A stretch of DNA of 33,649 nucleotides from a virus: positions 1-33,649 of IMG/VR virus record IMGVR_UViG_3300001256_000037, one strand, 5' to 3'. Position numbers and translations under genes: made by a program. The stretch's first letter is position 1. Each line of letters opens with the position of its first letter. Below, piece after piece: positions 657 to 22,569 of this stretch. The notes under the pieces are model-generated. The model ran no database searches and had not been told where the DNA came from. It saw nothing but the letters and a program-made list of their open reading frames with translations.

Positions 657-1166
657 CAATTGCTGATAATCAGAGCCAGGTTGTACCCAAAGCACAGGAA
701 TGCTAACTGGTAGTTTCCGGTTAGCTATTCTTTGTGCCTCAGTACCTATATACACAGTTGGAATAGTAGTGTCCTCCAAATTTCTAACCAGTAACGTGTA
801 TTTGCTGCTTAACATACTATCACTATACTGGTCAGCACTTAGTACAAAGTTACCTACTAGGTTATGACCTGACTCTAGTGCTACCTCTAGTGCATCGCAG
901 CCAGGATAACTAAGAAATGCCAAGTCACTGTCACTAACTACCAGGTTAACTACTGGTACACCTATCAGCACACTATCCAACGTTGGAGTATCTGAGGGTG
1001 TTTCACGTTTAACGATGCCACTGTATAGCTTGGGTACAGTAGCCGTCATTCCAACTAACGTAACTACAGACCTGATAAGAGCTGCACGTTTGTCAGGAAT
1101 ATCACCTATAACAAATGTGCTAACCCACAGGCTGATGCTAAGTAATTCCAGTAATCGAGTATTCAT
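642..1166 (-). CDS. Hypothetical protein, last gene of the sigma-like unit
   Basis: About 174 residues. The start at 1166 is chosen over 1199 because it forms an ATGA overlap with the stop of the upstream gene (TGA at 1165-1163), typical of translational coupling. The N-terminal third (LLELLSISLWVSTFVIGD, then a second apolar stretch around VVTLVGMTATV) is hydrophobic and could be membrane-associated. The rest is mixed alpha/beta-like with no motif I recognise. It is third in a leftward unit with a sigma-like protein and a small membrane protein. Confidence 0.7.
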   Translation of the reverse strand: MNTRLLELLSISLWVSTFVIGDIPDKRAALIRSVVTLVGMTATVPKLYSGIVKRETPSDTPTLDSVLIGVPVVNLVVSDSDLAFLSYPGCDALEVALESGHNLVGNFVLSADQYSDSMLSSKYTLLVRNLEDTTIPTVYIGTEAQRIANRKLPVSIPVLWVQPGSDYQQLLQIR

Positions 1167-1354
1167 AACAGCATCCCCATAGCATAGCTGACAGCACAAA
1201 AAAGTAGTTCACTCAGATGAGGTTCGACACGGTGTCTATAGGTTATCAGGAACATTATGGCTAGCACCAATAAAATGATGCGTAGGCTCAAACTGATAGC
1301 CGCTAGCTCACCAATTGAAAACGGCAGTAACACAAACCAAATTAAGTTAGTCAT
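1163..1354 (-). CDS. Small membrane protein, two or three TM segments (holin candidate)
   Basis: 63 residues, mostly hydrophobic. One helix covers about residues 3-19, a second about 24-38 (RIILLVLAIMFLITY), then a short basic turn (RHRVEPH), then a C-terminal apolar stretch ending in MGMLL. Size and topology are compatible with a phage holin. A C39 peptidase that could be the lysin lies across the divergent control region at 2751-3272. Holins cannot be recognised by sequence alone, so the role is inference. It overlaps the upstream gene by 8 nt and the downstream gene by ATGA. Confidence 0.7.
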   Translation of the reverse strand: MTNLIWFVLLPFSIGELAAISLSLRIILLVLAIMFLITYRHRVEPHLSELLFCAVSYAMGMLL

Positions 1355-1742
1355 TGTCTAAGTAATGTAAATAGGCGTTAGCGATGCGCTTGCGTAAATT
1401 AGGGTACAGCATGATGCTGCTAATATAATCTGGCAAGTCAGTTACAGGAGATTCGGATGCTATGCGCTGTTTGTCTATTGTAACCATAGTAAACGGCGAG
1501 GCATCTCTAGGTGTTTTGATTAGTGTAGCGTGGTCACGTAGCCAGTGTAAACAGTAACCGTTAACACTACGCCTAATAAAACTTTGCTGACTACGCAATG
1601 GCTGACTGGTATCTAGCCTGGCCATCAGGCCTACAATCTTAGGAAAACAAAATGACTCTAGTTCGTCTGGGTGTTGCTTATATTTAAACGCCTGTTGTCT
1701 ACACTGTTGCACTACTAGCTTTAAAATGTCGTCGTAATTCAC
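1347..1742 (-). CDS. Sigma-70 region-2-like protein, lacking region 4
   Basis: 131 residues resembling sigma-70 region 2 and the start of region 3. An N-terminal helix carries a core-binding-like pattern (ELE...GLMARLD, about 28-44). It is followed by FIRRSVNGYCLHWLRDHATL (about residues 55-74) and IKTPRD, matching the F..Y....I...I..YLRD....KTPR arrangement of regions 2.3-3.0. The remaining 50 residues show no clear region 4 helix-turn-helix. A natural inference is a phage transcription factor redirecting host RNA polymerase, perhaps to the late GGGTACTA boxes. The start is GTG 1742 with GGTGG about 7 nt upstream; the same GGTGG(C/T)ATAGT leader precedes the tape measure gene. It might instead be an anti-sigma or unrelated helical protein. 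Confidence 0.6.
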   Translation of the reverse strand: MNYDDILKLVVQQCRQQAFKYKQHPDELESFCFPKIVGLMARLDTSQPLRSQQSFIRRSVNGYCLHWLRDHATLIKTPRDASPFTMVTIDKQRIASESPVTDLPDYISSIMLYPNLRKRIANAYLHYLDND

Positions 1743-1770
1743 ACTATGCCACCATTTGTACTACTACCCT

Positions 1771-1779
1771 AGTATAGCA
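1771..1779 (-). promoter_or_regulatory. Extended -10 promoter for the sigma-like unit
   Basis: On the minus strand TGC-TATACT (box 1776-1771) lies about 30 bp before the GTG at 1742. The nearest TTGACG (1807-1802) is 25 bp away, too far for a normal -35, so the extended -10 or an activator would matter. A further TTGACG (1839-1834) with CACTAT at 18 bp lies upstream, giving possible tandem promoters within the operator array. Confidence 0.5.
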
Positions 1780-1802
1780 CACTCACAGCTACACTGTAAA
1801 GC

Positions 1803-1868
1803 GTCAACTATAGTGTCCAAATTACCCTAAAAGCGTCAACTATAGTGTCATCTGTCAACTATAGTTGC
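1803..1868. promoter_or_regulatory. Three-site operator-like array
   Basis: GTCAACTATAGTGTC occurs at 1803-1817 and 1835-1849. A near-perfect palindromic version (GTCAACTATAGTTG) lies at 1854-1867. Start-to-start spacings are 32 and 19 bp. Each site approximates the full palindrome GTCAACTATAGTTGAC, as expected for a dimeric DNA-binding protein. The array is mirrored at 17539-17604 with the same spacings. Iterons of a replication origin are the main alternative. Confidence 0.75.
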
Positions 1869-2045
1869 ATTAACCCCACAGGGGTGCAGTAAATAGCTGG
1901 CATAGCGGGCTATTACTACCCTACCTGTTTACTACTACCCTAGTAGCAGCTATTTAATCCAGTAACTTACACAGCATAGCTGGCTACTACCCTACCTGTT
2001 GTACTACTGCCATAGTAGGGGGTTAGCAGTTGCAGCGTAGCTGCT

Positions 2046-2053
2046 GGGTACTA
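2046..2053 (+). promoter_or_regulatory. GGGTACTA box, candidate late promoter (lysin unit)
   Basis: GGGTACTA begins 31 nt before ATG 2077 and directly follows a mini-hairpin (CAGC-GTA-GCTG, 2032-2042). The same box at nearly the same distance precedes 17992 (+) and 17321 (-). An extended -10 (TGG-TATAAG, 2060-2068) also lies here, but it would give an almost leaderless transcript. Confidence 0.55.
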
Positions 2054-2076
2054 TTCTATTGGTATAAGTAATAATT

Positions 2077-2352
2077 ATGATTGACTCACTAATCTGGCAA
2101 CTTGACTTAACCCTGCAAAATGCTAGTAGTCTGGCTAGCTTGCCTAACCTAAGCGATGACGAACAGGCTACAGTAACCCAATTTGTAGTCAAAACACTGG
2201 ACAGCGTTGACACTCAATTGCTAACCAACCGAGATTTAATAACATATATTAAGTTATATGTCAAGTATCGCCAGTCACAGGCTGAGTTTGATATTGGAGA
2301 CTATTTAAGTGATGCCCAACTTGCCAGAATCCAGGGAATCGTTAGCCAGTGA
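2077..2352 (+). CDS. Hypothetical protein, first gene of the lysin unit
   Basis: 91 residues, predicted mostly helical (MIDSLIWQLDLTLQNASSL, then a helical LSDDEQATVTQFVVKTLD segment). It has no signal peptide, Cys or recognised motif. It is the first of three overlapping rightward genes ending in the C39 peptidase and lies 24 nt after a GGGTACTA box, so late expression is likely. No clear Shine-Dalgarno sequence is present. The function is unknown; a small virion or tail-completion protein is one possibility. Confidence 0.75.
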   Translation: MIDSLIWQLDLTLQNASSLASLPNLSDDEQATVTQFVVKTLDSVDTQLLTNRDLITYIKLYVKYRQSQAEFDIGDYLSDAQLARIQGIVSQ

Positions 2353-2791
2353 CCTGTTAGACCACTTTACCAGTGTCAAGACACTAAAGCAGTTGTTTAT
2401 TACCCTGGTACTAATAACTAACATAGCCGGAATATATGACGTAGTATTTAACAATGCCGCAGGTGTCAGAGGCCTGATACAAGCATATCTAAGCATTAAC
2501 CGATACACACCCCCTAGAGCTATTAGACAGCGTGACCTAGAGTTTATTGACACGGCATTAGCTGACTACCCTGGCACTAGGGTAACTGTGTTTGAGCTTA
2601 ACCCTGACGCTGGCTTTGAATCAGTGGTGTCCTATGTTGATGCACAAAAAATTGTTTTGTATGACTCTGGTATACCAATTGCAGTATTGGCAATCAACCC
2701 ACCAGTGCCACAGGCAGTTTTACAGCTAATATTTAATTATTTTAGAGGATATGAGGACATTAACAGTTCCATACTTGAGCCAACACCGTAA
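2312..2791 (+). CDS. Hypothetical protein with apolar N-terminal segment
   Basis: About 159 residues. ATG 2312 follows an in-frame GTG at 2309; either start overlaps the previous gene by about 40 nt. Residues about 28-42 (LKQLFITLVLITNIAGI) are apolar enough to be a membrane or buried helix. The remainder has an alpha/beta pattern (VTVFELNPDAGFESVV, KIVLYDSGIPIAVLAIN). I do not recognise the family. It overlaps the start of the peptidase gene by 41 nt, so the three genes are likely translated together. A tail-tip or lysis accessory role is only a contextual guess. Confidence 0.75.
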   Translation: MPNLPESRESLASDLLDHFTSVKTLKQLFITLVLITNIAGIYDVVFNNAAGVRGLIQAYLSINRYTPPRAIRQRDLEFIDTALADYPGTRVTVFELNPDAGFESVVSYVDAQKIVLYDSGIPIAVLAINPPVPQAVLQLIFNYFRGYEDINSSILEPTP

Positions 2792-3272
2792 CACTCGAAA
2801 CCCGCTAGGCAGTTGCAATGTTACCTGTATAGCAATGTTGCTGCACTTTTATGGTGCTACTTGGGTAACACCAGACTACTTGTATGACTGGCTATTGGCA
2901 CGCAACTTGTCTAGACACTCTGGCTATGACCTGAGCTTTGCTTTCAATAGTTTGACAACTGAGGCAACTAATAGGTTTAGCACCACGTCAAACCTGACAA
3001 CGCTTAGGCAACAAATTAATGCAGGTTATCCGGGCATTATTCACGGCTATTTTACAACATTTGGACATATTATCGTGGTATGTGGCTATGATGCTACTGG
3101 CTTTATTGTCAATGACCCCTATGGTGAGTGGTTTAGCAGTGGCTACCGTACTCAGCTAACTGGTGAAAACTTGCACTATAGCACAGGCTTAATTAAGCGA
3201 TTGTGTATGCCAGACGGTAATCTGTGGCTACACAAATTTTCAACACATAGCCCACCCTGTAAGGGTTTGTAG
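2751..3272 (+). CDS. C39-like cysteine peptidase, candidate phage lysin
   Basis: 173 residues with the papain-fold layout of peptidase C39-like domains: oxyanion Gln 11 in PYLSQ, nucleophile Cys 22 in GSCNVTCIAMLL, catalytic His 106 in FGHIIVVCGYD and Asp 122 in IVNDPYGEW. Phages often use this single-domain form as a cell-wall amidase or peptidase during lysis or in the tail tip. No separate cell-wall-binding domain and no signal peptide are visible, so release would need a holin (candidate at 1163-1354). GAGG five bases before ATG 2751 is one of the better ribosome-binding sites in the window. It could be a virion-associated hydrolase instead. Confidence 0.8.
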   Translation: MRTLTVPYLSQHRNTRNPLGSCNVTCIAMLLHFYGATWVTPDYLYDWLLARNLSRHSGYDLSFAFNSLTTEATNRFSTTSNLTTLRQQINAGYPGIIHGYFTTFGHIIVVCGYDATGFIVNDPYGEWFSSGYRTQLTGENLHYSTGLIKRLCMPDGNLWLHKFSTHSPPCKGL

Positions 3273-3400
3273 TTGACTGGCTTTAAACTAGCCTACTAGG
3301 GTAGTAGTACAACAGGTAAGGTAGTAGACTGCTATGCAGTTGACGTTTTTGCTGGGTACGCAGTAGGTGGGTAGTTAAGGTGTATACATACTAAACCAAA
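3273..3400 (+). promoter_or_regulatory. Intergenic control region before the tail gene
   Basis: Contains an inverted-orientation piece of the dispersed element (CTACTAGGGTAGTAG around 3294-3308, then ACAACAGGTAAGGTAGTAG), a mini-hairpin ACTGC-TAT-GCAGT (3328-3340), TTGACG (3340-3345) and a GGGTACGC sequence (3354). A GGGTAGTT variant of the late box lies at 3369-3376, 32 nt before ATG 3401, matching the spacing seen at other late genes. Confidence 0.5.
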
Positions 3401-5365
3401 ATGCTAATCAATACAACACACTCAACGGCAACAGTGTCACTAGGGGGGGTAGACATAACTCAGCTAGTAACAGGTATTGACCTGACTAGAACTACTATTA
3501 TTCAAGCTGTCATTAACCTAGTACCTAATCACGGTTTACAGCCTAAGCCTGGTCAACTGCTGAAGCTAAACCTGGCTGTTGCTACTAGCCTAGTAGTGCA
3601 GACCTATACCAGTGACCGTATTACTTGCGGATGTTGGTTAGCTGTGTATTTGCAAGCCAACGCCAGTCTACCATCTACTCAGCTTAGTCCAGTATTGGGT
3701 GTATGTTTAAAAGATATACTCACTGACAGAGGAATACCTGCTAACCGTATTAGCTTGCAGTCAGGTAACACTAAGCTAGGTAGTATACCAACGCTAGGAG
3801 ATGACCCAGTACAGCTAGCTAGTTTTGCTGGATTTGCGTTGTATAGTGACGCTAGTGGTACTATTAAGCTGGCCAAACTTATGGACACTGAGTCCAGTAT
3901 TGGCAGTTTTACGGCAGCCGAAGTTGTCAGCCAGTCGGCAGGAACCGCAAACCCTTTGAGTGCTAACCGTATCACAGTAGAGGGTGTGCTGAGTCAAGTT
4001 AACGAGGCAACAACTGAGTACAAAGTAGAAACAGAGACCCCAGTCAGAGGGGGTGTTCGTAAAGTAACTAAAGAGTACGAAGTCAGGCGAAACAAAACCA
4101 TAGAAACCGAAACAATTAAGGAACCTCGAAGCCAGGTCTCAAGTTTTGGCAGCAATTTTGAGTCTAGTAGGGGTAGTGCTGACAGGTTACTGAGTAGCTT
4201 CAGTAACACTCGCATTGGTCAATCAGTGGTTAGCCAAGTAACCGAAGTCACTACCGAGGTTGATAGAGATAACTATTTAAAAACCAGAACCAAAGTAGTC
4301 ACAGGCATGGCAGCAAAAGGACTAAGCAAATTTTTTGCAGCATGGGCATCAGCAGAGATACCGCCACCGCCTGACAACACCGATGCCACTGATGAATCAG
4401 CAGAAACACCGCCTGCTGAGACTACAGTTGAATTTAGCGGGTCTAGTGGTAGCATTACAGGTGATTACAATTTTAACCCAGTAAACACCACTAATAGCAG
4501 TAGCGCGTTAACTATTGCCAAGCCTACCGGACTGTTTAGAGAGATTGACCTAGAATATCAGGAAGAAAACTGGGAATGGTCGCTAGATGAGGTCAAAGTG
4601 ATTACTAACCCCAGTCAAAAGCTAGTGAGTTTCAAGGATGCACGAGGTAAGTGTGTTTACTCCAGAGTGAAGTATTTGCCTATTGGTGCTATTTTACCAG
4701 AAATGGGTAATCCTATATTTGGCTATCAGACCCCTATCAGTGGCAAAAGTAACCCCAAATACTTGAATGGAGCTAGGTTAACTATTGCTGAAAAAGAAGT
4801 TATAATTTATACTCAAGAAGAGTCAGGTGACTGGATAGCAGAACGCACACTGGAACAGGCAATAGGTGTCAGAAATGCACAGGAGCCACTAGATGCCATG
4901 CGTAGCGTGCAGTTTGATGACACTGAAGAAGCCGCTAGCCGTGACCGCAGCAATGTAGCACTCAATGTAGCAACGCAGCTTACAGTGGCTATTAACGAGC
5001 GTATAAGGCAGTCACCACCAGCACAGCTAGAAATTAATGACACTAAGCAGTATACTAAAACCCGGCCCTACAAATTTGCCATTGAGTTAGGCTCAGACGA
5101 TTTGTTAGACAGGTCAGTACAGTTGTCACCGTCGCCTTTTGTGCCTAGCATTACAGCTATTGCCAGTTTAGCTAAATACCAAGCATTGCAGCAACGGGGT
5201 CAGGCACAGCAGCTAATTATTGAGCTACCACTAGCCGGACTTACAATAGATTTACCCCCAAACTCATTGCTGCGGTTTGAGGGCAAAACTTACATATTGT
5301 CACAATTACAAGTTACTGTCAAGCAAAATCTTGGTACGATTCAACTAACGGTGTTCCCATTTTAA
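3401..5365 (+). CDS. Putative tail or baseplate structural protein
   Basis: 654 residues in three parts. The N-terminal ~210 are beta-rich (VSLGGVDITQLVTGIDL..., KDILTDRGIP...), reminiscent of baseplate hub or gpD-like proteins. A charged repeat-like middle (about 215-290) is full of T/E/V/R, followed by a PPPP and acidic linker (about 318-345). The C-terminal ~290 end in LLRFEGKTYILSQLQVTVKQ, again a hub-like beta segment. I infer tail or baseplate from composition and from the late-type control region; no catalytic motif is visible. It forms its own transcription unit. Its 3' end overlaps the convergent DUF262 gene by 47 nt. Confidence 0.65.
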   Translation: MLINTTHSTATVSLGGVDITQLVTGIDLTRTTIIQAVINLVPNHGLQPKPGQLLKLNLAVATSLVVQTYTSDRITCGCWLAVYLQANASLPSTQLSPVLGVCLKDILTDRGIPANRISLQSGNTKLGSIPTLGDDPVQLASFAGFALYSDASGTIKLAKLMDTESSIGSFTAAEVVSQSAGTANPLSANRITVEGVLSQVNEATTEYKVETETPVRGGVRKVTKEYEVRRNKTIETETIKEPRSQVSSFGSNFESSRGSADRLLSSFSNTRIGQSVVSQVTEVTTEVDRDNYLKTRTKVVTGMAAKGLSKFFAAWASAEIPPPPDNTDATDESAETPPAETTVEFSGSSGSITGDYNFNPVNTTNSSSALTIAKPTGLFREIDLEYQEENWEWSLDEVKVITNPSQKLVSFKDARGKCVYSRVKYLPIGAILPEMGNPIFGYQTPISGKSNPKYLNGARLTIAEKEVIIYTQEESGDWIAERTLEQAIGVRNAQEPLDAMRSVQFDDTEEAASRDRSNVALNVATQLTVAINERIRQSPPAQLEINDTKQYTKTRPYKFAIELGSDDLLDRSVQLSPSPFVPSITAIASLAKYQALQQRGQAQQLIIELPLAGLTIDLPPNSLLRFEGKTYILSQLQVTVKQNLGTIQLTVFPF

Positions 5366-5735
5366 ACTGCACTACTCTGGCTAGTCGTAAACCAAACTGA
5401 CGCTTTATGCTGACATCTAGCTGGCTAAAGGTTGTGTTATTTAACTCAGGCACAGTAACTAGCTTGGTTAGTGTTAGCCTATCTTGCAAATAGTCGCATA
5501 TTGTAAGCAATCTTTGCTTGCCGTCTAGTACCTCGTTACCCAGTAAGTAAATCTGGGGCATAGGCAACCCTAGCATCAGATACTCAATTAACCGGGACTG
5601 TCTGCCAACATCCCAAAACAAGCCAGTATTGTAAGTCAGTTGCCTACCAGGAATGTCCCTAAAATACCAGTCAACTGTGCTGTAATTAACCTCACTAATT
5701 AACTCTCGCAATCTAGGGGTTATACTCATAATCAC
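5319..5735 (-). CDS. DUF262 / GmrS-N-like ParB-fold protein
   Basis: 138 residues containing the DUF262 core: a Tyr/Trp-rich entry (YNTGLFWDVGRQSRLIEYLM, 35-54), LGLPMPQIYLL and the diagnostic VLDGKQRLLTI (69-79), the nucleotide-binding or hydrolysing DGQQR box of GmrSD-type proteins. Full restriction enzymes fuse this to an HNH (DUF1524) half, which is missing here; phages commonly carry such stand-alone forms. It may act in defence against other phages or in nucleotide-dependent DNA processing. ATG 5729 (residue 3) is an equally good start. The start overlaps the upstream gene by 23 nt and the 3' end overlaps the tail gene by 47 nt. Confidence 0.75.
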   Translation of the reverse strand: MIMSITPRLRELISEVNYSTVDWYFRDIPGRQLTYNTGLFWDVGRQSRLIEYLMLGLPMPQIYLLGNEVLDGKQRLLTICDYLQDRLTLTKLVTVPELNNTTFSQLDVSIKRQFGLRLARVVQFKMGTPLVESYQDFA

Positions 5736-6047: not shown

Positions 6048-6545
6048 CTAGCCTAGTGTCAACAGTTTGATGTCATATTTTGCAAACAGCTTAATTGCCT
6101 CATCTGGGATATCCCCAAATAATGCCACAGTTGGCTGTAAGTTGGTAGTGTGGCTGTATGCTAATACTTGACCTAGTGCGTGTTTCCACTGGCTAGCCGC
6201 TTTTACCTCAATAACCTCGTAGGGTGTCATTACGTCAACTATCCCGGTGCTAATAGCAACCTCACGAGTAGCTTCCGGTGTTGTGTGGTAAACAAAGTCA
6301 CGATACACATACTCTGGTATAGTTACACCACTGACTTCTGTCGTTAGTCTCAGTATTGTCTGTAACCAACCGTCGCTGTAGCCCACTAACAATTGCTTAA
6401 GGTTTACAGTAGACCAGTTAGCGGCTTTGTGTAGTTGCTGAGGTTTCTCGCTAGCCGGGAAGCGTTTAATCATGTTGCAAGTAGCAGAGTTGTCAAACCT
6501 TAACGCATCTGCTACTGCTTTGGGTAATGGTATCACTCGAGACAC
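6048..6545 (-). CDS. PD-(D/E)XK superfamily nuclease-like protein
   Basis: 165 residues. The C-terminal half shows the nuclease core: Asp 104 in GIVDVMTP, E113-V-K115 in YEVIEVKAAS, and the following QWKHALGQVLAY helix with Gln 126. This motif set is shared by small viral and phage nucleases of this superfamily. The N-terminal ~85 residues are helical and could bind DNA (VNLKQLLVGYSDGWLQTILR). It probably starts at GTG 6545, overlapping the ribonucleotide reductase beta gene by 13 nt, so it is last in that operon. A role in host DNA breakdown to feed nucleotide pools would fit, but it could be a repair or restriction-type enzyme. Confidence 0.75.
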   Translation of the reverse strand: MSRVIPLPKAVADALRFDNSATCNMIKRFPASEKPQQLHKAANWSTVNLKQLLVGYSDGWLQTILRLTTEVSGVTIPEYVYRDFVYHTTPEATREVAISTGIVDVMTPYEVIEVKAASQWKHALGQVLAYSHTTNLQPTVALFGDIPDEAIKLFAKYDIKLLTLG

Positions 6546-7363
6546 TTGTCAGAATAGATATAGTCGTTAGCTAGTTCAAAAGGCAAGTGATGGAAGCTAT
6601 ACCACGTCAGCTTGTCAAACTCCGGACAGCTTAGGTCAGTCAGCAACTCACGGCTAAACCGCTTAAGGTTATCTAATGTTAGTGCCTGGGGTGCATCGTT
6701 TAAACCCTCACCCCAAATCCAGTCTAATGTTGCGTCAATTAGGTTGGTGTGTTGGCTAGCATTAGACCAGAATCCCAGACCTGAACTAACGGCTTGGTTA
6801 GTTTGAACATGGCGAAACTCATCCTCAGCTATTGCCATTGCTAAACGGCTTAAGCTAGGACTACCTACGATTCTGAGCAATCCTAAGCTAATCAGAAAAA
6901 CACCTACTTCTAGCACTCCTGCGATATGTATAGGGTGCTGTTTGTCTGACTCAGCTTTCCAGTCTTTAGCTAGTTGTTGTAACTCAGCATTAGTATCGCA
7001 GCCATAGGTTTGTTTAGCATACTGAAACCCGTTATAATGCCTAGCTTCGTCTGCGCTGTTTGACTTAAGCAACAAAACTAACTCAGAATCGGCTTTGGGT
7101 AACTCTTGCTGTAACCCGGACAGTACCATAGTACCTACTTCTATCTCTAGTTCTAGCCCTAAACCAATTAAGCGTCTTACCATAGCTTCAGCCAAAGCGT
7201 CACCCTGTTTTGTGGTGTCAGAATACAGACATACTGGGTGATATTGTAATGGCTTGGGTTGCCAAAACACGGGCTTAGGCTGGTTATCCACCAATTGGCA
7301 ACGGCTAAGATATAAATCTCTAATAGACATACTTTGCAAACTCTGGACTAAGTTGGACATCAA
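6533..7363 (-). CDS. nrdB: Divergent ribonucleotide reductase beta (R2-like) diiron protein
   Basis: 276 residues with a ferritin-like four-helix metal site: Glu 75 (31 before the next ligand, as in R2), Glu 106-x-x-His 109 in DEARH, Glu 152 in GVLEVGVF, and Glu 182-x-x-His 185 in EDEFRH. IAEDEFRH resembles the I.RDE.LH signature of class I R2. Trp 34 could match the R2 electron-transfer Trp. The position of the radical tyrosine (His + 4) is Phe 113, so a stable tyrosyl radical at the usual site is not expected. The C-terminus carries Tyr 268 and Tyr 270. It shares an operon with a class I alpha subunit (7956-9560). The protein is much shorter than typical R2 (about 340-390). Another ferritin-like oxygenase is the main alternative. 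Confidence 0.7.
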   Translation of the reverse strand: MMSNLVQSLQSMSIRDLYLSRCQLVDNQPKPVFWQPKPLQYHPVCLYSDTTKQGDALAEAMVRRLIGLGLELEIEVGTMVLSGLQQELPKADSELVLLLKSNSADEARHYNGFQYAKQTYGCDTNAELQQLAKDWKAESDKQHPIHIAGVLEVGVFLISLGLLRIVGSPSLSRLAMAIAEDEFRHVQTNQAVSSGLGFWSNASQHTNLIDATLDWIWGEGLNDAPQALTLDNLKRFSRELLTDLSCPEFDKLTWYSFHHLPFELANDYIYSDKCLE

Positions 7364-7556
7364 TACTCGGAAAGTCGGGACTAAGCCTGACTATATTTAA
7401 TTCTACTGCTATGGTTAGCACATTGTCAAGTGTAGCTAGTGTTGTACTGTCACCAACTAGACTAAACAGGACACTGTGACTGGTTTGTATGTTAGTGTCC
7501 TGTAATCTGGCCGATATTGTACTGACTGCTACTATAGGGTCAGTGTTGAATGGCAT
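7320..7556 (-). CDS. Hypothetical protein inside the nrd operon
   Basis: 78 residues, Ser/Thr/Val rich, with a beta-like pattern (SHSVLFSLVGDSTTLATL, VLTIAVELNIVRL). No motif recognised. It overlaps the gene before it by 25 nt and the R2-like gene after it by 44 nt, so the reading frames are tightly packed. Its conserved-looking place between alpha and beta suggests a small accessory factor of the reductase, but this is only context. Confidence 0.65.
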   Translation of the reverse strand: MPFNTDPIVAVSTISARLQDTNIQTSHSVLFSLVGDSTTLATLDNVLTIAVELNIVRLSPDFPSIDVQLSPEFAKYVY

Positions 7557-7954
7557 AATTGGTCGATTGTCTCGTTAAATAAACGCTGCCATTGTTCTAA
7601 GCTAAGTGACTGCAAGAACCCAATGAACTCTATTTTGTGGTCAAATGGGTCAATGCCGGCTTTGGCGGGGTTTTGACTGATTAGCCACAGTATATCGTGG
7701 TCTAATGTTAGATAAAAGCTTAGTTCGGCTTGCTGTAATTCATAGGCCGCAGATGAGTTTACCATGCACTCAAGCGTCAGCAAAGCTTCAGCAGGGTTAT
7801 CAAAGTCAGGGTCAAATAACTCGTCTAGTTGCAAGCTATGGTACATCCATCGTAGCTTGTCTTCTATGCTGTCAAACATTGGTATAACAGTAACTAGGTT
7901 CTCAAGACCCCCGAACTTAGCCAGTAACCGATTTAGGATTTTTGTAGGTATCAT
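7532..7954 (-). CDS. Hypothetical helical protein inside the nrd operon
   Basis: About 140 residues, helical and acidic (KLRWMYHSLQLDELFDPDFD, then AEALLTLECM). No Cys-x-x-Cys, so it is not a glutaredoxin or thioredoxin. ATG 7954 is chosen over GTG 7966 because GAGG lies seven bases upstream and the ATG directly follows the stop of the alpha gene (TAA at 7958-7956). This is tight coupling to nrdA. Function unknown. Confidence 0.75.
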   Translation of the reverse strand: MIPTKILNRLLAKFGGLENLVTVIPMFDSIEDKLRWMYHSLQLDELFDPDFDNPAEALLTLECMVNSSAAYELQQAELSFYLTLDHDILWLISQNPAKAGIDPFDHKIEFIGFLQSLSLEQWQRLFNETIDQLCHSTLTL

Positions 7955-7955
7955 A

Positions 7956-9560
7956 TTAGTCCTCACAACTAGAGCATAATTGAACAGGTTTGATTACTTT
8001 ACGAGCATAGTCTGCTGTTGCATAATCTCGTGTCATGTTGTAGTAAAGCGTTGGTAAACTGCTGTCATACCACTGGTCAAAGCCTGAGCCATCTAAGCCA
8101 AAATCTTTAACTGTGTCGTATGATACAGAATGCACTCGCCCGTGTTGTTTCATCAGATTATAGTACCCCTGGCACAGTTTAAGGTGAGATTCAGGGTCTA
8201 GCCGTGTCTCTACGTTACCCATGTCATAGGTTGTGATTGTCTCTGAGTCTGCGTGAGACATACGGTTAACATAGCGGCTATTGGGTGTCCAAATACCTCG
8301 GCAAATAGTAAAACCGTTAATGTCTTTGCACCGGTAACTATGCGACTGTGCTGGCTCGACAGTATGCAAACGGTCAAACTTTGGAATCTGGTGATAGTCA
8401 GCTAAACGGTCTGCTATCATTGTACTGATTTGGTAAGACCGTCGCAGGCAGCCTACCAGTCGTTTTGCGTTATCTGACGCTGTGTTATCGTACCACAACG
8501 CTTTAATGAAGTCATCGTAGCTGATTTTTTGTGATGCCAGCAAGTTAGCCATACCCATCACGTCAACGGCTACCTGATTATCGGTAGTCAAGTCAGCCCA
8601 ATTATTTGCCTTTTGTGGGTGCAGTTTACGCCATTCTACGTGTGTGTTGATTGCCCGGATTGTACAGGCTTTAAACGCCTCATCTAGCTGTGCTAAATCG
8701 CTTACTTGGCCTAAGTTAACACGGTAAATCAGACAAGTGCCTCGGTCTGCTAGTAGGATACCCTGACACACGTTAGCATACAGATTAGGTCTGGATTGCT
8801 TCTCCAGGAATAATGACTCGCTATCCACTAATGCTGATAACCGGGATTTTAGCTGTTGGTTTGGCTTAGATGTCAGTATCACGCCCTTTTTGTGGCTGCC
8901 AGGTAAGCTTACCAGTGGAACGTCAAGATAGCTAGTTAGGTAGGGTGACGTTGCCATAATAGCCGAGGTAATAATGCCTTTCTTGTATCCCCCTCTCAAA
9001 ATGACAGCGTTAAGTGTGCCAAATAGCCGTAATAACGAGTGCATGGTTTGACGGTTCAAGTGGAATCGAATCGCCTCAAAAATCTGATAAAAGATAACTG
9101 CACCGCTTGCAACCAAACCGTTACTGTTAGCAGTGTCACGGGGTCTGAGGTTGCTTAAATCAACTGCTACCTGCTTAATGCCTGTGCGTTGGTATCGGAA
9201 AACCTCGGATATAGATGCTAGTATGCTATCGATGCTGTCACCTACTACCAGGGTAGGGCATACTCGGTTAACGTTGACTCTGGACTGGTCAGTAATCTCA
9301 TCTAAATACTGAGTGTCAGAATTACCTTTTAGTACCAGTGTCAAGTCAAAGTCAGGGTCAGGCTCAGATAACCGGAAGTCTGACTCAATAATTAGCTTAA
9401 CTCCAGCCCCTACTTTGAGACTGCGAGTAGCAAAGCTAATAATCTCGGCTAGGTCGGTATTGGATTTTAGCACGGCTAGGGTGCAGCTAAACGGCAGTCT
9501 GTCCCCATGACGGTCGGCTAGGTAGGTTGTCACTCGTTCTGGTGCTGTTACTATACTCAT
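7956..9560 (-). CDS. nrdA: Ribonucleotide reductase alpha subunit, short divergent class I type
   Basis: Reduces ribonucleotides to deoxyribonucleotides. Numbered from ATG 9560 (534 residues; AGAGG five bases upstream; the longer GTG 9599 frame lacks this). Landmarks: redox Cys 101 (RVCPTLVVGDS), NLRPRDT with SGAVIF, the active-site loop N263-V-C265-Q-G267, second redox Cys 276 in GTCLIYRVNLG, VDVMGMANLLASQKISYDD matching the MGLADLL helix, the Tyr-Tyr dyad 506-507 in LPTLYYNMTRD that carries the radical in class I enzymes, and a C-terminal CSSC (529-532). The N-terminus is short, with no ATP-cone. The catalytic Glu two residues after the thiyl Cys is Gly 267 by this alignment. The R2-like partner is at 6533-7363. 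Confidence 0.8.
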   Translation of the reverse strand: MSIVTAPERVTTYLADRHGDRLPFSCTLAVLKSNTDLAEIISFATRSLKVGAGVKLIIESDFRLSEPDPDFDLTLVLKGNSDTQYLDEITDQSRVNVNRVCPTLVVGDSIDSILASISEVFRYQRTGIKQVAVDLSNLRPRDTANSNGLVASGAVIFYQIFEAIRFHLNRQTMHSLLRLFGTLNAVILRGGYKKGIITSAIMATSPYLTSYLDVPLVSLPGSHKKGVILTSKPNQQLKSRLSALVDSESLFLEKQSRPNLYANVCQGILLADRGTCLIYRVNLGQVSDLAQLDEAFKACTIRAINTHVEWRKLHPQKANNWADLTTDNQVAVDVMGMANLLASQKISYDDFIKALWYDNTASDNAKRLVGCLRRSYQISTMIADRLADYHQIPKFDRLHTVEPAQSHSYRCKDINGFTICRGIWTPNSRYVNRMSHADSETITTYDMGNVETRLDPESHLKLCQGYYNLMKQHGRVHSVSYDTVKDFGLDGSGFDQWYDSSLPTLYYNMTRDYATADYARKVIKPVQLCSSCED

Positions 9561-9613
9561 GTTACCTCTGCTAGTGTGGGTATTGGCCAGGTTAGTCACC
9601 CCCCTGGTTTTGG

Positions 9614-10345
9614 TTATATAGCGGCTCTAAACAGTCTTAGCACATTTTCGACAATTACAGACTCAGCTTCTAGCCAGTATTTGAACCGTCGCTCAAACTT
9701 GCGAGGTGTGTTGCTAGTTACGTTTTGGTAAAATGCGGATAATCGTTGACCAAAGCCAATAGTTAAACCCTTCACTTGGCCGTCGTATTTTGCAGACCAG
9801 TCATCAAACTCAGGTTGTGCCTTTAAAATGTCAACAGCAGGCGTGAAACTGGACTCATCCTCAGTGTCTCGTAACTCAGTAAAGTAGTCAGGGTCAGTAA
9901 GGATGCTTGCCTGGTCACAGAGAATGGCACGGATAAACGGTGCTATGACACTCAAGTTGCGGTCTAACAGGTCAAAGCGTTCCTCTAGTTGTGCTAGCTT
10001 AGACTCTACCGTAACTAGCTTGGACTCAGTTGCAGTCAGCTTGGACTCAGTTGCAGCTAGCTTAGTTTTTACTTTGGTTAGCTCAGACCGGAGACTGATG
10101 TTATCATTGCGTAATGTGGATATAATCTCATCTTGGCTAGTAATAATCTTGCCGTAATTTTTTAGCTCAGACTCTACCGTAACTAGCTCAGACCTGATAC
10201 TAACGCTCTCATTGCGTAATGTGGTTATAATCCCATCTTGGCTAGTGATAATCTGGTTTTGGCTAGTGATAATCTTGCCGTAATTTTCTAGCTCAGACTG
10301 AAATTGATTAAGACGTAACTCGAGTCTTTGCTCTAAACTAGTCAT
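9614..10345 (-). CDS. Coiled-coil protein with nested internal repeats
   Basis: 243 residues. Residues about 1-140 form a long coiled coil with two levels of repetition: a ~36-residue block (NYGKIITSQ...IIxTLRN...SxRSEL) occurring twice, and a 7-residue unit of the type KLTATES repeated four or five times (about 93-125). The C-terminal ~100 residues form a separate, globular-looking domain (DYFTELRDTEDESSF, then IGFGQRLSAFYQNV, ending in a helix). No catalytic motif seen. It has its own promoter, whose -35 overlaps the end of the helicase gene, and lies in the early block between helicase and reductase. The role is unknown; a scaffold or DNA-associated oligomer is possible. Confidence 0.8.
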   Translation of the reverse strand: MTSLEQRLELRLNQFQSELENYGKIITSQNQIITSQDGIITTLRNESVSIRSELVTVESELKNYGKIITSQDEIISTLRNDNISLRSELTKVKTKLAATESKLTATESKLVTVESKLAQLEERFDLLDRNLSVIAPFIRAILCDQASILTDPDYFTELRDTEDESSFTPAVDILKAQPEFDDWSAKYDGQVKGLTIGFGQRLSAFYQNVTSNTPRKFERRFKYWLEAESVIVENVLRLFRAAI

Positions 10346-17991: not shown

Positions 17992-20900
17992 ATGAGTGAC
18001 CAGCGCATTGTAATTAGCTTTAGTACAGAAGGTATACCTCAGACCCGTAACGATATTGACAAGCTTCAAAAGCGTACGACAGGGGGTTTTACTGAGTTAA
18101 ACAATGCTTTTGAGGTGATGCAAAAGGCATTAGCTGGTGTTCAAGGTGTGGCAACTAGCCTATACTCGGCACTAATTGACAGTAACGAAAAGCTAAACGC
18201 AGAGCTGCTAAAGTCTCAAACTAACCTGGCTAGCAACTTAGAGATTTACAGAGACGGCACAGAAATCGTTGATATCACCGAGAAAATTGTCAGTACCCAG
18301 AATCTACTAAAAGACAGTCTTAAGCAAATCGAGCAAGACACTAAGTCATTAGTTGGGGTAACTACTGACCAGGTTAACGGCGTGTTTCAGGTGTTGTTAC
18401 AAAATAGCCAGAAGTTTATTGGCCAGTCAAAAGAGTTTAGTGACCCTATAGAAGCCGCAACAGCTAGCACTAAAAATTGGGCAGCTGCTCTAGGTACTCT
18501 AGGTATACCACTAGAACAGGCTAACCAAGAAATCCGAAGCATATTGCAAGGCGATGTTAATAATCCTGATTCTATTATTGCTAAAACTTTACAAATTAGC
18601 CGTGAACAGTATGACCAGTGGGTAGCTAATGGTGAACTGATTGACCAGCTAAACTCTAAGCTAGAGGTATTTACGGCTGGTAATGCACTAGCTAGCCAAT
18701 CTATAGCAGGTGTAACGTCAAACCTCACTAGCTTAGTAGAAGATACAGCACGTCTAGTAGGGGAGCCACTGTTAGCCCCAGTAGTAACCGCTTTAAACGA
18801 CATCTATAAGCTGATGGAAGACAACATTAAGCTAGTAGAAGAATTGGCAGGTGATAACATTCAGCAAGTTGTCAGCCTAATGGAAACGCTACGCCAGACA
18901 ACTGCCAAAGTAGCTGAGTCACTCGATATAAACCCCGAAGGCTTCTTAACAGGCGGTAGTCAGTTACTAGGCAACCTAATAGTTGCAATCGAGGCAATTA
19001 TTGAGCTAGGGGGTGGTCTGGTAGTATTAATTGGTGATGACCTAAGCTATGCTTTCAATAACGCTACTGCTGTACTTGACCTAACATTAGAGGGCATAGC
19101 CAAGTTAGCAAATTTCCTTAATATTGTAGTTGGTGGTATTGGTGACTTTGTAGACGCACTTGACAAAATCCCTGGCTTAGACTTGGGTGAAGTGCTAGGC
19201 AACGCTCAGACTGGTGTGGCTAAGTTAACAGGTGAGTATCAGCAGTCAATAGAAGCCGTAGGTATTTATAACGATATAACAGGGGTGTTGCTGGCACAAA
19301 CTGACAAACTCAGCAAGTCTCAAAATGCCTCAGAAGACAGCATAAAATCACAAATAGCCGCGTTACAAACCCAAAAAGCCGAGTTAGAGTCTGTCAAAAC
19401 ATTTAGAGATGCTGATGCTCAGTCAGTACAGGCACAAGTAGACGCTATTGACAAGGCTATAGCTGGGTTAAACTCCATGACTCAGGCAACTGGCGAACTC
19501 AGTTTTAAAAGTAAAGAGTTAGCTGAAGTTGGTACAATTTACGACACACTGGCTGCTAAAGCTGAGGCTGCGGCTGGTCAAATAGCATCAGAGGGCAGTG
19601 GTGATGCTGCTGTGTTTAAAGAGTCAATAGATGCGCTAACTGAGTTAACAGAGAAACAGGTTGAGTATGGTCAAATAACGATTACTGAGGCATCAGAGCG
19701 ACTAAATAGTATACTAGGTAACAACAAAATTGAGCTAGAGCAACGAGAGTCGGTGTTGCAGACGCTTAGGCAACTAGAGCAGGATTTCACCGATTTCAAA
19801 TTAGCTGAGTTACAGCAACAGGCTGATGCACTTAATTTGCTAGCCGAAACAGGGCAAATCAGTGAACGTGAATCTCTTGACCAGGTTTATGCTAACGAAA
19901 ACACACAGTTACAGTTACAAATCGACCTGTTGGATAGGCAAATAGAACAAAACACTGAGTTAGGCATCAGTAGCCAGCAACTAGCACAACAAAAAGCAGG
20001 GTTATTACAGCAACAACTCCAAGCCGAAGTCGAGTACAGCGAGTCAGTTGTAGATTTACAAGCTGAGGCACTTGACCGGGCCTATGACCAAACTTTGCGA
20101 CTAGCAGAGGAGTCTGAGTTAGCGCGTACCATAGCACTAACCAGGGGACTGATTGACCGTAGCATTAGTGAGGATGAGTTTAATAGTCAGCAACTAAACG
20201 CAACAAAGCAGCGACTAAATGCTGAACTAGCGGCCGAAAAAGCACAAGTCACGGCGTTACAAGCATTGGTGGCTAGTGCCTCTACTGTTGACCAGCAACG
20301 TGAGCTACAAAGCCAGATAGACGAAGCTAAACTAAATTCAGCACAAATAACTAAGCAACTGCTAGACGTTGAGCTAGATGCCCAAAAACAAATACAAGAG
20401 GCATTGCAAAAGACAATTGATAAGCGTAACCAGGCAATAGCTGACTCAATTGATGCCCAAAAGCTAGCATTGACTAAGCGGATTAGCGATGAGTCACAAT
20501 TACAAGACAGTCTGGTACAGCTTACAGTTGACCGGATAAACGCTGAACTAGCGGCCGAAAAACAGGCACAAAATGAACTAGCAGCACTAAATGATGCTGA
20601 TGGGGTTGAGGCAAGTTTACGCAAGCAAACCCAGCTTAAAATTAGCCTAATAGAAGCCGAGAAATCAGCAGAAGCATCCAAACTAAGTTTGGTTAAAGAG
20701 GGCTTAGATAAGCAGCTACAAGCCACAGAAGACGAATTTAAGGCTAGAGAACTAGCTATCAGGCAATCTGTCAGCAATGAGTCTGAGTACCAGTCACAGT
20801 TAGCTGAACTGACAGTAGCCCGGATAAATGCACAACTAGAGGCTGAACTAAACGCACAGGCTGAACTAGAGGCTGCTGGTGATACTGAGGGTGCAGAAGA

Positions 20901-22569
20901 AAGCAAGCGTAAGCAACGCCAGCTAGCTATCAACCTGATAGATGCTGAAATAGCCGCAGAGAAATCTTTACAGTCAATAATATCCAGTCAACTAGATGAG
21001 TACCGCAAACGCTTAGACTTGCAAAAACAGTCTGCTGAAGTGAAACTACTGGATGAAGAACTGAAACTAGAAAAGGCTGTTATAGCTGGCCGGATAACTA
21101 AAGAAAAGGCTGAAATTGCAAAGCTAAATATTGTCAAAAAACGGGTAGCTGAAGAACTAGCTATATTGCAACAGCTAGAGGGTCAAGGTGATGAGGCTGC
21201 TCAGATAGCTAACCAGCAAGCCATAGCCAAAGCAAAAATTGAGAGTTTGCGAGTTACCCAGCAAATTAATGAGGCTACTAAAGACGCTGCTACACAGGCA
21301 GCACTAGAAAAAATCACACTAGAGTATGAGTCACAGTCTCAGATAGTGGAGGATGTTGCTAGCCAGTTATCACACATTAACCAGCTAATCGATTTACAGG
21401 GTCAGTCAGTTGCCAGAGTTAACCAGTTACGTGAGTCTCAGGTTAATTTAGCTAATGCTCAAGTAGGTGTGCTAGAAGCTGGATTAGGTAACGAGCTAAG
21501 TTTAGTCAACAAATCGCTGAGTGCCAGACAGAAGCTTAACGACATACAATCACAACTAGCCGATTCTGAGTTACCAGAAGAAAAGCAAATTGAGCTACTG
21601 AACCAACAAAAGGCAATTAAGGCTCAGTTAGCTGTGCTAGGTAGTGACGGGCTTAAGTCAGAAGTTGAGCTAATAATCGAACGCCAAGCAATAGAACAGC
21701 AGCAACTAGCATCTAAACAGGCACAGTTTGACATTAGCCAGCAACAGGCAGCGTTGACACTTGAGAACCAACGGGCTAGTATACAACTTGACCAAATCAA
21801 AGCCAGTAACAAAGCACAAGAGTTAGCACTAGAAGCCGAGTTACTAGCCATTAAAGCCGAACAGTTACAAGCTGAGGCCAGGTTAACCGAGGATTCAACA
21901 AAACGTAACCAATTGTTGCAACAAGCGGCTAGTATTGACAAACAATCAGAGCGTACTGCCGAATTAGCTGTGAAACAAACTGAAGCTGCTGAACAAGAGG
22001 CCGCTATTCGTACTTCTATGTTAGACCAGCAAGAGGTAATCAGCAAATTGCAAGCTGACAGCCAGCAGGAATCGCTAGATACTCAGAAAACACTGCTAGA
22101 TGCACAGCAAGCGTATGAGGCTAGTATCGAGGGCTTTAACCCCAAAATAAACACCAAGTCACTTGACGATTTCAGCAAAAAAGTAGGCAAAATAAAAACT
22201 GAGTTTAACGAGGCTATAAAAATCGATAATGTACCACTTGATGTCCAAATACCGGTACAAGTAACGCCAGCCAATTTAGACGTTAGGGTAACTGATAACC
22301 AACTTAGCAACAGCATTAGTAAGTTAAGCAGTGGGCTAAACTCGCAAGCAACGGCTATGACTGGTATCAGAGGCACAGTTAGCGGCTTAGGTGGCAAGCT
22401 AGATAGTATTAGCCGTGCATTAGCCACCCAGACTACTGGAAGTGGTGCTAGCACAACAGTAAAACCCGTAGTTAACAATAACATACAGGTTACTGTTAGC
22501 CCTACGGGTCAAGTTGGGGTCTCATCTACATCGCTAATTGACGAACGTAAAGCTGAGGCCGGTTGCTAG
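17992..22569 (+). CDS. Tail tape measure protein
   Basis: 1525 residues, the longest gene. The N-terminal 300 residues are helical (MSDQRIVISFSTEGIPQTR, EVMQKALAGVQGVATSLYSA), typical of tape measure starts. A hydrophobic segment around residues 323-343 (LIVAIEAIIELGGGLVVLIG) is typical of the membrane-penetrating part. From about 600 to 1380 it is almost continuous Gln/Glu/Leu/Ala coiled coil, with about four degenerate ~100-residue repeats marked by R(I/L)NA(E/Q)L(A/E)AE (near residues 744, 851 and 948, with a weaker copy near 1050). By the usual 0.15 nm per residue this predicts a tail near 230 nm. No lysozyme or peptidase domain is visible. The stop overlaps the convergent gene by 4 nt. 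Confidence 0.9.
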   Translation: MSDQRIVISFSTEGIPQTRNDIDKLQKRTTGGFTELNNAFEVMQKALAGVQGVATSLYSALIDSNEKLNAELLKSQTNLASNLEIYRDGTEIVDITEKIVSTQNLLKDSLKQIEQDTKSLVGVTTDQVNGVFQVLLQNSQKFIGQSKEFSDPIEAATASTKNWAAALGTLGIPLEQANQEIRSILQGDVNNPDSIIAKTLQISREQYDQWVANGELIDQLNSKLEVFTAGNALASQSIAGVTSNLTSLVEDTARLVGEPLLAPVVTALNDIYKLMEDNIKLVEELAGDNIQQVVSLMETLRQTTAKVAESLDINPEGFLTGGSQLLGNLIVAIEAIIELGGGLVVLIGDDLSYAFNNATAVLDLTLEGIAKLANFLNIVVGGIGDFVDALDKIPGLDLGEVLGNAQTGVAKLTGEYQQSIEAVGIYNDITGVLLAQTDKLSKSQNASEDSIKSQIAALQTQKAELESVKTFRDADAQSVQAQVDAIDKAIAGLNSMTQATGELSFKSKELAEVGTIYDTLAAKAEAAAGQIASEGSGDAAVFKESIDALTELTEKQVEYGQITITEASERLNSILGNNKIELEQRESVLQTLRQLEQDFTDFKLAELQQQADALNLLAETGQISERESLDQVYANENTQLQLQIDLLDRQIEQNTELGISSQQLAQQKAGLLQQQLQAEVEYSESVVDLQAEALDRAYDQTLRLAEESELARTIALTRGLIDRSISEDEFNSQQLNATKQRLNAELAAEKAQVTALQALVASASTVDQQRELQSQIDEAKLNSAQITKQLLDVELDAQKQIQEALQKTIDKRNQAIADSIDAQKLALTKRISDESQLQDSLVQLTVDRINAELAAEKQAQNELAALNDADGVEASLRKQTQLKISLIEAEKSAEASKLSLVKEGLDKQLQATEDEFKARELAIRQSVSNESEYQSQLAELTVARINAQLEAELNAQAELEAAGDTEGAEESKRKQRQLAINLIDAEIAAEKSLQSIISSQLDEYRKRLDLQKQSAEVKLLDEELKLEKAVIAGRITKEKAEIAKLNIVKKRVAEELAILQQLEGQGDEAAQIANQQAIAKAKIESLRVTQQINEATKDAATQAALEKITLEYESQSQIVEDVASQLSHINQLIDLQGQSVARVNQLRESQVNLANAQVGVLEAGLGNELSLVNKSLSARQKLNDIQSQLADSELPEEKQIELLNQQKAIKAQLAVLGSDGLKSEVELIIERQAIEQQQLASKQAQFDISQQQAALTLENQRASIQLDQIKASNKAQELALEAELLAIKAEQLQAEARLTEDSTKRNQLLQQAASIDKQSERTAELAVKQTEAAEQEAAIRTSMLDQQEVISKLQADSQQESLDTQKTLLDAQQAYEASIEGFNPKINTKSLDDFSKKVGKIKTEFNEAIKIDNVPLDVQIPVQVTPANLDVRVTDNQLSNSISKLSSGLNSQATAMTGIRGTVSGLGGKLDSISRALATQTTGSGASTTVKPVVNNNIQVTVSPTGQVGVSSTSLIDERKAEAGC

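Follow-up and report, generated by a model that had tools for sequence, protein, structure and literature searches.

Which ribonucleotide reductase (RNR) is encoded by a viral gene whose product lacks the radical-site tyrosine, and what sets this enzyme apart? The question is raised by IMG/VR virus record IMGVR_UViG_3300001256_000037, which was analysed here as a window of 33,649 bases. An open reading frame on its minus strand (6533..7363) had been described, in an initial annotation made from the sequence, as a short R2-like diiron protein with phenylalanine at the radical-tyrosine position. The window encodes head and tail genes of the tailed-phage type, and a megablast search of its first 25 kb against 50,697 phage records revealed no near-identical isolate phage. 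Together with the neighbouring alpha gene on the same strand, which the annotation had rightly taken for its operon partner, the frame almost certainly encodes a class O RNR. The beta subunit and the general enzyme type are already known, and its Phe113 is ordinary for class O. The unusual feature was found in the alpha subunit, where the catalytic glutamate of the finger loop is replaced by Gly280 and a glutamate is present at position 415. Residue numbers refer to the alpha (547 amino acids) and beta (276 codons) of this window, both encoded on the minus strand.

The reciprocal Gly280/Glu415 exchange

The alpha subunit (7956..9599) has its best PDB match in 7urg, the class O alpha of Synechococcus phage S-CBP4 (sequence E-value 1.2e-29, profile E-value 9.2e-83), and its structural model (pLDDT 87.6) can be superposed on 7urg with a Z-score of 42.4 over 377 residues. 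In the phylogenetic tree it falls into the class O clade with the cyanophage alphas (support 100/99-100), with classes I and II outside. Besides this tree position, the pair shows the ferritin-like gene downstream, the beta metal pattern, the tyrosine dyad and the C-terminal CxxC motif of class O. However, it has neither the NxCxE finger loop common to classes O, I and II (PMC9669993), which reads NVCQG here, nor the minimal class O alpha without a loop 1 extension, since its 547 residues include an insert. Because of the missing NxCxE loop, the enzyme is a divergent branch inside class O, not a typical member.

Cys39 (9483..9485), the invariant redox cysteine of strand A, corresponds to C225 of the E. 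coli enzyme; Cys114, which the phmmer alignment had put in this role, is not conserved. Alignment and inspection of the DNA place the finger loop N276-V-C278-Q-G280 and the following C289 at 8733..8774, with Gly280 (8760..8762) in the place of the catalytic E441 of E. coli. The motif E415-P-A-Q418 (8346..8357) has a glutamate directly before the phosphate-loop proline, at the position of E. coli M620, and a glutamine at the position of E. coli E623. The radical-transfer dyad Tyr519-Tyr520 of strand J (8040..8045) aligns with E. coli Y730/Y731, and the C-terminal CSSC (C542/C545, 7965..7976) is predicted to relay reducing equivalents.

The finger-loop glutamate is considered essential to reductases of classes O, I and II. 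The substrate O3' is held in E. coli by Glu441 together with Asn437, and the role of general base has been proposed for Glu441 (PMC4728125). In a set of 100 distinct alphas of class O, 91 combine the finger-loop Glu with Ala at position 415, and the remaining nine have Gly (eight proteins) or Ala (one protein) in the finger loop together with Glu at 415, with zero exceptions to this pairing. The automatic tally missed the residue before the proline in contigs L004 and L005, and in both it was identified as Glu by eye. Gln418 is invariant in the nine alphas and is replaced by Ala in canonical class O. All class I and class II sequences compared have the finger-loop Glu, with M, P, A or K at the 415 position. 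Viral contigs were also scanned with two independent DNA patterns, each representing one half of the exchange (the Gly finger loop or EPAQ). The two scans had five contigs in common, and their further true RNR matches (L120, L126 and L127) have both halves. A match of the EPAQ pattern in L125 proved to be a chance hit that is not an RNR. In L120, the loop is still class O-like (EPTQSCAYR) with the Glu already there. At the level of the sequences, these comparisons show the reciprocal exchange itself. As a separate observation, in the canonical class O alpha of L025 the conserved Asn that lies two positions ahead of the radical cysteine is replaced by Gln (QVCLE).

The nine alphas form one long-stemmed group (support 100/100) nested in the class O branch; some of their rows are long, which makes the order inside the clade unsure. 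At 31-60% identity across phages, the radical path, the rest of the catalytic residues and the adjacent beta are conserved. N276, C278, C289, C39 and the tyrosine dyad are kept throughout the clade, and a beta gene is located downstream of alpha also in L003, L004, L005, L008, L121, L126 and L120. Scans of bacterial and archaeal genomes revealed no relatives of the clade, and the literature searched, with most subscription journals outside its coverage, described no alpha of class O, I or II that lacks the finger-loop Glu. By this literature, the alpha branch is so far unreported. Viral RNR surveys validate sequences by their catalytic residues or discard those lacking them as 'likely non-functional' (PMC6370689, PMC12918982), and because of this demand the branch would probably drop out of them.

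The loop 1 insert

Canonical class O has no equivalent of a stretch of about 70 residues that all nine clade alphas carry between strand B and helix B. In the window's alpha, profile comparison and superposition show that this loop 1 insert (residues 72-142, 9174..9386) resembles that of the monomeric class II RTPR. The N-terminal profile runs unbroken through NrdJ of Mycobacterium phage Priamo (E-value 6.5e-11), an RTPR according to NCBIfam (TIGR02505), and the alpha model superposes over 485 residues on the B12-dependent class II structure 1l1l versus at most 389 on the other structures listed. Against TIGR02505 the alpha itself scores 34.5 bits and does not reach the cut-off of 340. It shares the dimer-mimicking insert with RTPR, but not the combination of B12 dependence with a missing dyad and a missing beta, as the YY dyad is present and a beta gene is adjacent. 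The strand A-helix A-strand B profile matches the protein twice, which a loop 1 insert of the monomeric class II type explains better than a new tandem duplication of the N-terminus.

By analogy with the Lactobacillus leichmannii RTPR, the alpha is likely to be monomeric, and the insert would allow a single alpha to imitate the dimer interface and to form the specificity site. No report of a beta-dependent enzyme with an RTPR-type insert was found in the literature, most subscription journals again being uncovered. It is conceivable, although doubtful, that the enzyme represents a distinct subclass, ferritin-powered and monomeric with a truly different active-site acid-base set-up that goes beyond a moved Glu, which combines the class O radical system with class II RTPR-type regulation, possibly acts on triphosphate substrates and, as a living link, connects classes O and II. 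The presence of a monomer-type insert in a class O enzyme raises the question of whether the minimal class O form came first or arose by reduction. The alpha has no ATP cone, yet it exceeds the typical class O alphas in length (547 versus approximately 412-470 amino acids in published proteins, with a mean of 412 and 470 in S-CBP4). Both subunits exceed the published class O lengths, and the earlier suggestion of a minimal pair with a trimmed alpha was therefore discarded.

Proposed mechanism and alternative explanations

The explanation that we prefer, with some reserve, is a phage class O reductase with a relocated carboxylate and an RTPR-type insert. Its beta would assemble a dimetal centre on E73, E106, H109, E152, E182 and H185, and with Phe113 in place of the tyrosine the oxidising equivalent would stay on the metals. 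The conserved residues suggest that the hole would then move from W34 to Y270 of beta and through Y520/Y519 of alpha to the finger-loop C278, which is the known radical-transfer pathway of RNRs. C278 would remove the 3'-H of the ribonucleotide, reduction at the 2'-carbon would fall to C39 and C289, and both of these cysteines would be re-reduced by the CSSC tail. The proton acceptor of the 3'-OH, normally the finger-loop Glu (Gly280 here), would be replaced by Glu415 acting from another side of the pocket. We consider it probable that this substitute acid-base carboxylate is Glu415, located where strand H ends. Its E. coli counterpart M620 is listed with C225, N437 and C439 around a docked pocket ligand (PMC7059031). 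If Glu415 has indeed taken over, an enzyme that ranks among the oldest would have a movable acid-base carboxylate, which bears on whether this carboxylate is ancestral.

Several points weigh against such a role. The evidence for M620 in the pocket is a docking list only (PMC7059031), and the closeness of Glu415 to O3' or to C278 is presumed. The nine sequences may stem from one event, so that a single accident of history might account for the co-change. The clade differs from canonical class O in approximately 16 other alignment columns as well, including a new invariant residue, Asp495, which is itself a candidate for the substitute carboxylate. To our knowledge, canonical class O is likewise without biochemistry.

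Another new carboxylate, most notably Asp495 at the end of strand I, could replace the finger-loop Glu, with Glu415 in a secondary role. Residue 495 is Asp in all nine clade alphas and Asn in canonical class O, but Asp is shorter, and docking places the pre-proline position in the lining of the E. coli pocket (PMC7059031); we regard this substitution as improbable. Somewhat more weight, although still little, is given to an enzyme with no internal 3'-OH base, or with a small carboxylate such as formate, in which Glu415 and Gln418 would serve in phosphate binding or in proton transfer near Tyr519-Tyr520. The use of formate is thought to be typical of most class III reductases. The retention of the redox Cys pair and the C-terminal CxxC, which are absent in the class III formate enzymes, argues against this possibility, as does the coupling of Glu loss and Glu gain in nine of nine alphas, whereas the proposal that E. 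coli E623 (Gln418 here) is the general base for Y731 (PMC11482829) would fit a function outside 3'-OH chemistry.

Loss of a Glu held essential in the E. coli enzyme might also indicate a catalytically dead or repurposed paralogue, similar to a viral R1 that has lost the ability to reduce ribonucleotides (precedent cited in PMC12918982). This is highly improbable in view of the remaining catalytic residues, the radical path and the intact adjacent beta, all conserved at 31-60% identity. An ordinary class O / 'Cyano SP' beta with a meaningless Phe, next to an alpha whose changes are drift, agrees with the finding that Leu or Phe at His+4 is usual in class O. It accounts for the beta but leaves the strict reciprocal pattern of the alpha unexplained, and as an account of the pair it appears very unlikely. 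The relocation of the carboxylate to Glu415 remains the preferred explanation.

The beta subunit, neighbouring genes and known systems

The beta gene is a real open frame at exactly 6533..7363 (276 codons, TTG start). In the alignment the betas of its relatives start near M2 or M12, and for this reason the true start is probably one of these two residues, giving a protein of 265-275 amino acids. Its reading as an R2-like RNR beta with a ferritin fold was borne out by a match to PHROG 6799 (RNR class Ia beta, E-value 2.7e-22) and by the 50 best structural matches of its AlphaFold2 model (pLDDT 88.3), all of which are R2 proteins (top Z 20.4); a phmmer search of the PDB gave no significant match. 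These results exclude the possibility that the closest homologues are unrelated ferritin-like oxygenases, for which just a sub-threshold match to Pfam Phenol_Hydrox was obtained (15.7 bits, cut-off 24.4).

Based on alignment and inspection of the DNA, the metal ligands are Glu73 (7145..7147), corresponding to E42 of the Prochlorococcus phage P-SSP7 beta (PMC6370689), E106 and H109 of the first helix pair within D105-E106-A-R-H109 (7037..7051), Glu152 (6908..6910), and E182 and H185 of the second helix pair within D181-E182-F-R-H185 (6809..6823), with D105 and D181 as second-sphere residues. The annotation had named the last five of these ligands correctly, but had given E75 as the first; E73 is assigned instead because it is invariant in 19 of 19 aligned betas, whereas position 75 is Pro in most relatives. 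The ligands, D105, D181 and W34 are invariant or almost invariant in the alignment of the beta with 18 relatives. The conserved C-terminal Tyr270 (6554..6556) is the presumed counterpart of Y356 in E. coli R2. The ligands and second-sphere residues follow exactly the Cyano SP pattern, E-E-H-E-E-H plus D,D (PMC6370689). In L050, a class O beta (1578-2315, plus strand) has Val aligned to the ligand position of Glu152.

The codon of Phe113 (7025..7027, four residues after His109) was checked on the DNA, and the reported Phe is correct. In class O ferritin-like proteins the radical position is occupied by Phe or Leu, and their mean length is 240 amino acids (PMC9531940), and the short Tyr-free beta has already been described as class O or 'Cyano SP' (PMC6370689, PMC9531940). 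None of approximately 50 betas found beside class O alphas has Tyr at this position, which is occupied by Leu in most and Phe in some; in the betas of the Gly280/Glu415 clade it is F, V or I. Phe113 was thus ruled out as a special feature, and the Tyr-free short beta is a published class O property rather than a novelty. Class Ic, named in the annotation as a known Tyr-free type, is not a particular relative of the beta, which belongs to class O / 'Cyano SP'. In Microcystis phage Mic1 (L017), the gene after the class O alpha (4457-5296) does not align as a beta, and none was present in the stretch read.

Two small minus-strand frames are located between alpha and beta, one of 144 amino acids (7532..7966) with a weak counterpart in L008, and one of 78 amino acids (7320..7556) with a counterpart in L003 (37% identity over 84 amino acids, E-value 1e-8). 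Adjoining beta, a 165-amino acid protein (6048-6545, minus strand) has the motif GIVDVMTPYEVIEVKAASQWKHALGQVLAYS, which by eye only resembles PD-(D/E)XK nucleases; it is kept beside beta in L003, L004 and L008 (38-43% identity) and was not found in L005. A 138-amino acid frame (5319-5735, minus strand) is similar to GmrSD_N (DUF262) and PHROG 2598 and is short for the family. Upstream of alpha, the window has one copy of a 243-amino acid coiled-coil protein (9614-10345, minus strand), and L008 has four diverged tandem copies (~892-3917, plus strand) with 31-38% identity to it. A 698-amino acid phage protein (13642-15738, minus strand) matches Pfam Cadherin (44.9 bits, E-value 1.6e-11), and a frame of 1525 amino acids (17992-22569, plus strand) matches nothing in Pfam or PHROG at the thresholds applied.

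Compared with the class O enzymes of S-CBP4 (7urg) and P-SSP7, the pair has the same alpha fold without an ATP cone, the same YY dyad, redox and C-terminal Cys pairs, and an adjacent short Tyr-free ferritin-like beta. It differs in the NVCxG instead of the NVCLE loop and in the Glu before the phosphate-loop Pro, and it has in addition the ~70-residue loop 1 insert and a second insert at ~173-195. The beta is longer by 25-35 residues and continues as a tail for ~6 residues past the last Tyr. The monomeric class II RTPRs (L. leichmannii 1l1l and the Priamo protein) share the loop 1 insert, which aligns over its full length with the Priamo protein, but they have the finger-loop Glu, no YY dyad (in the Priamo alignment), adenosylcobalamin and no beta. 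The Mn/Fe class Ic R2 of Chlamydia trachomatis (NrdB) also has the R2 fold (Z 18.7) and no radical-site tyrosine. However, it has an E/D second-sphere pattern, is longer and distant in sequence, and Cyano SP and Ic lie apart in the published phylogeny; the second-sphere Glu before the first ExxH (C. trachomatis E119) is D105 here (compared with Table 3 of PMC6370689). In the thioredoxin-dependent class III NrdD of Neisseria bacilliformis, a catalytic Glu has been proposed despite the absence of the class I/II finger-loop motif. This likeness is taken from published descriptions rather than from sequence, and unlike the present enzyme the N. bacilliformis protein is a glycyl radical enzyme.
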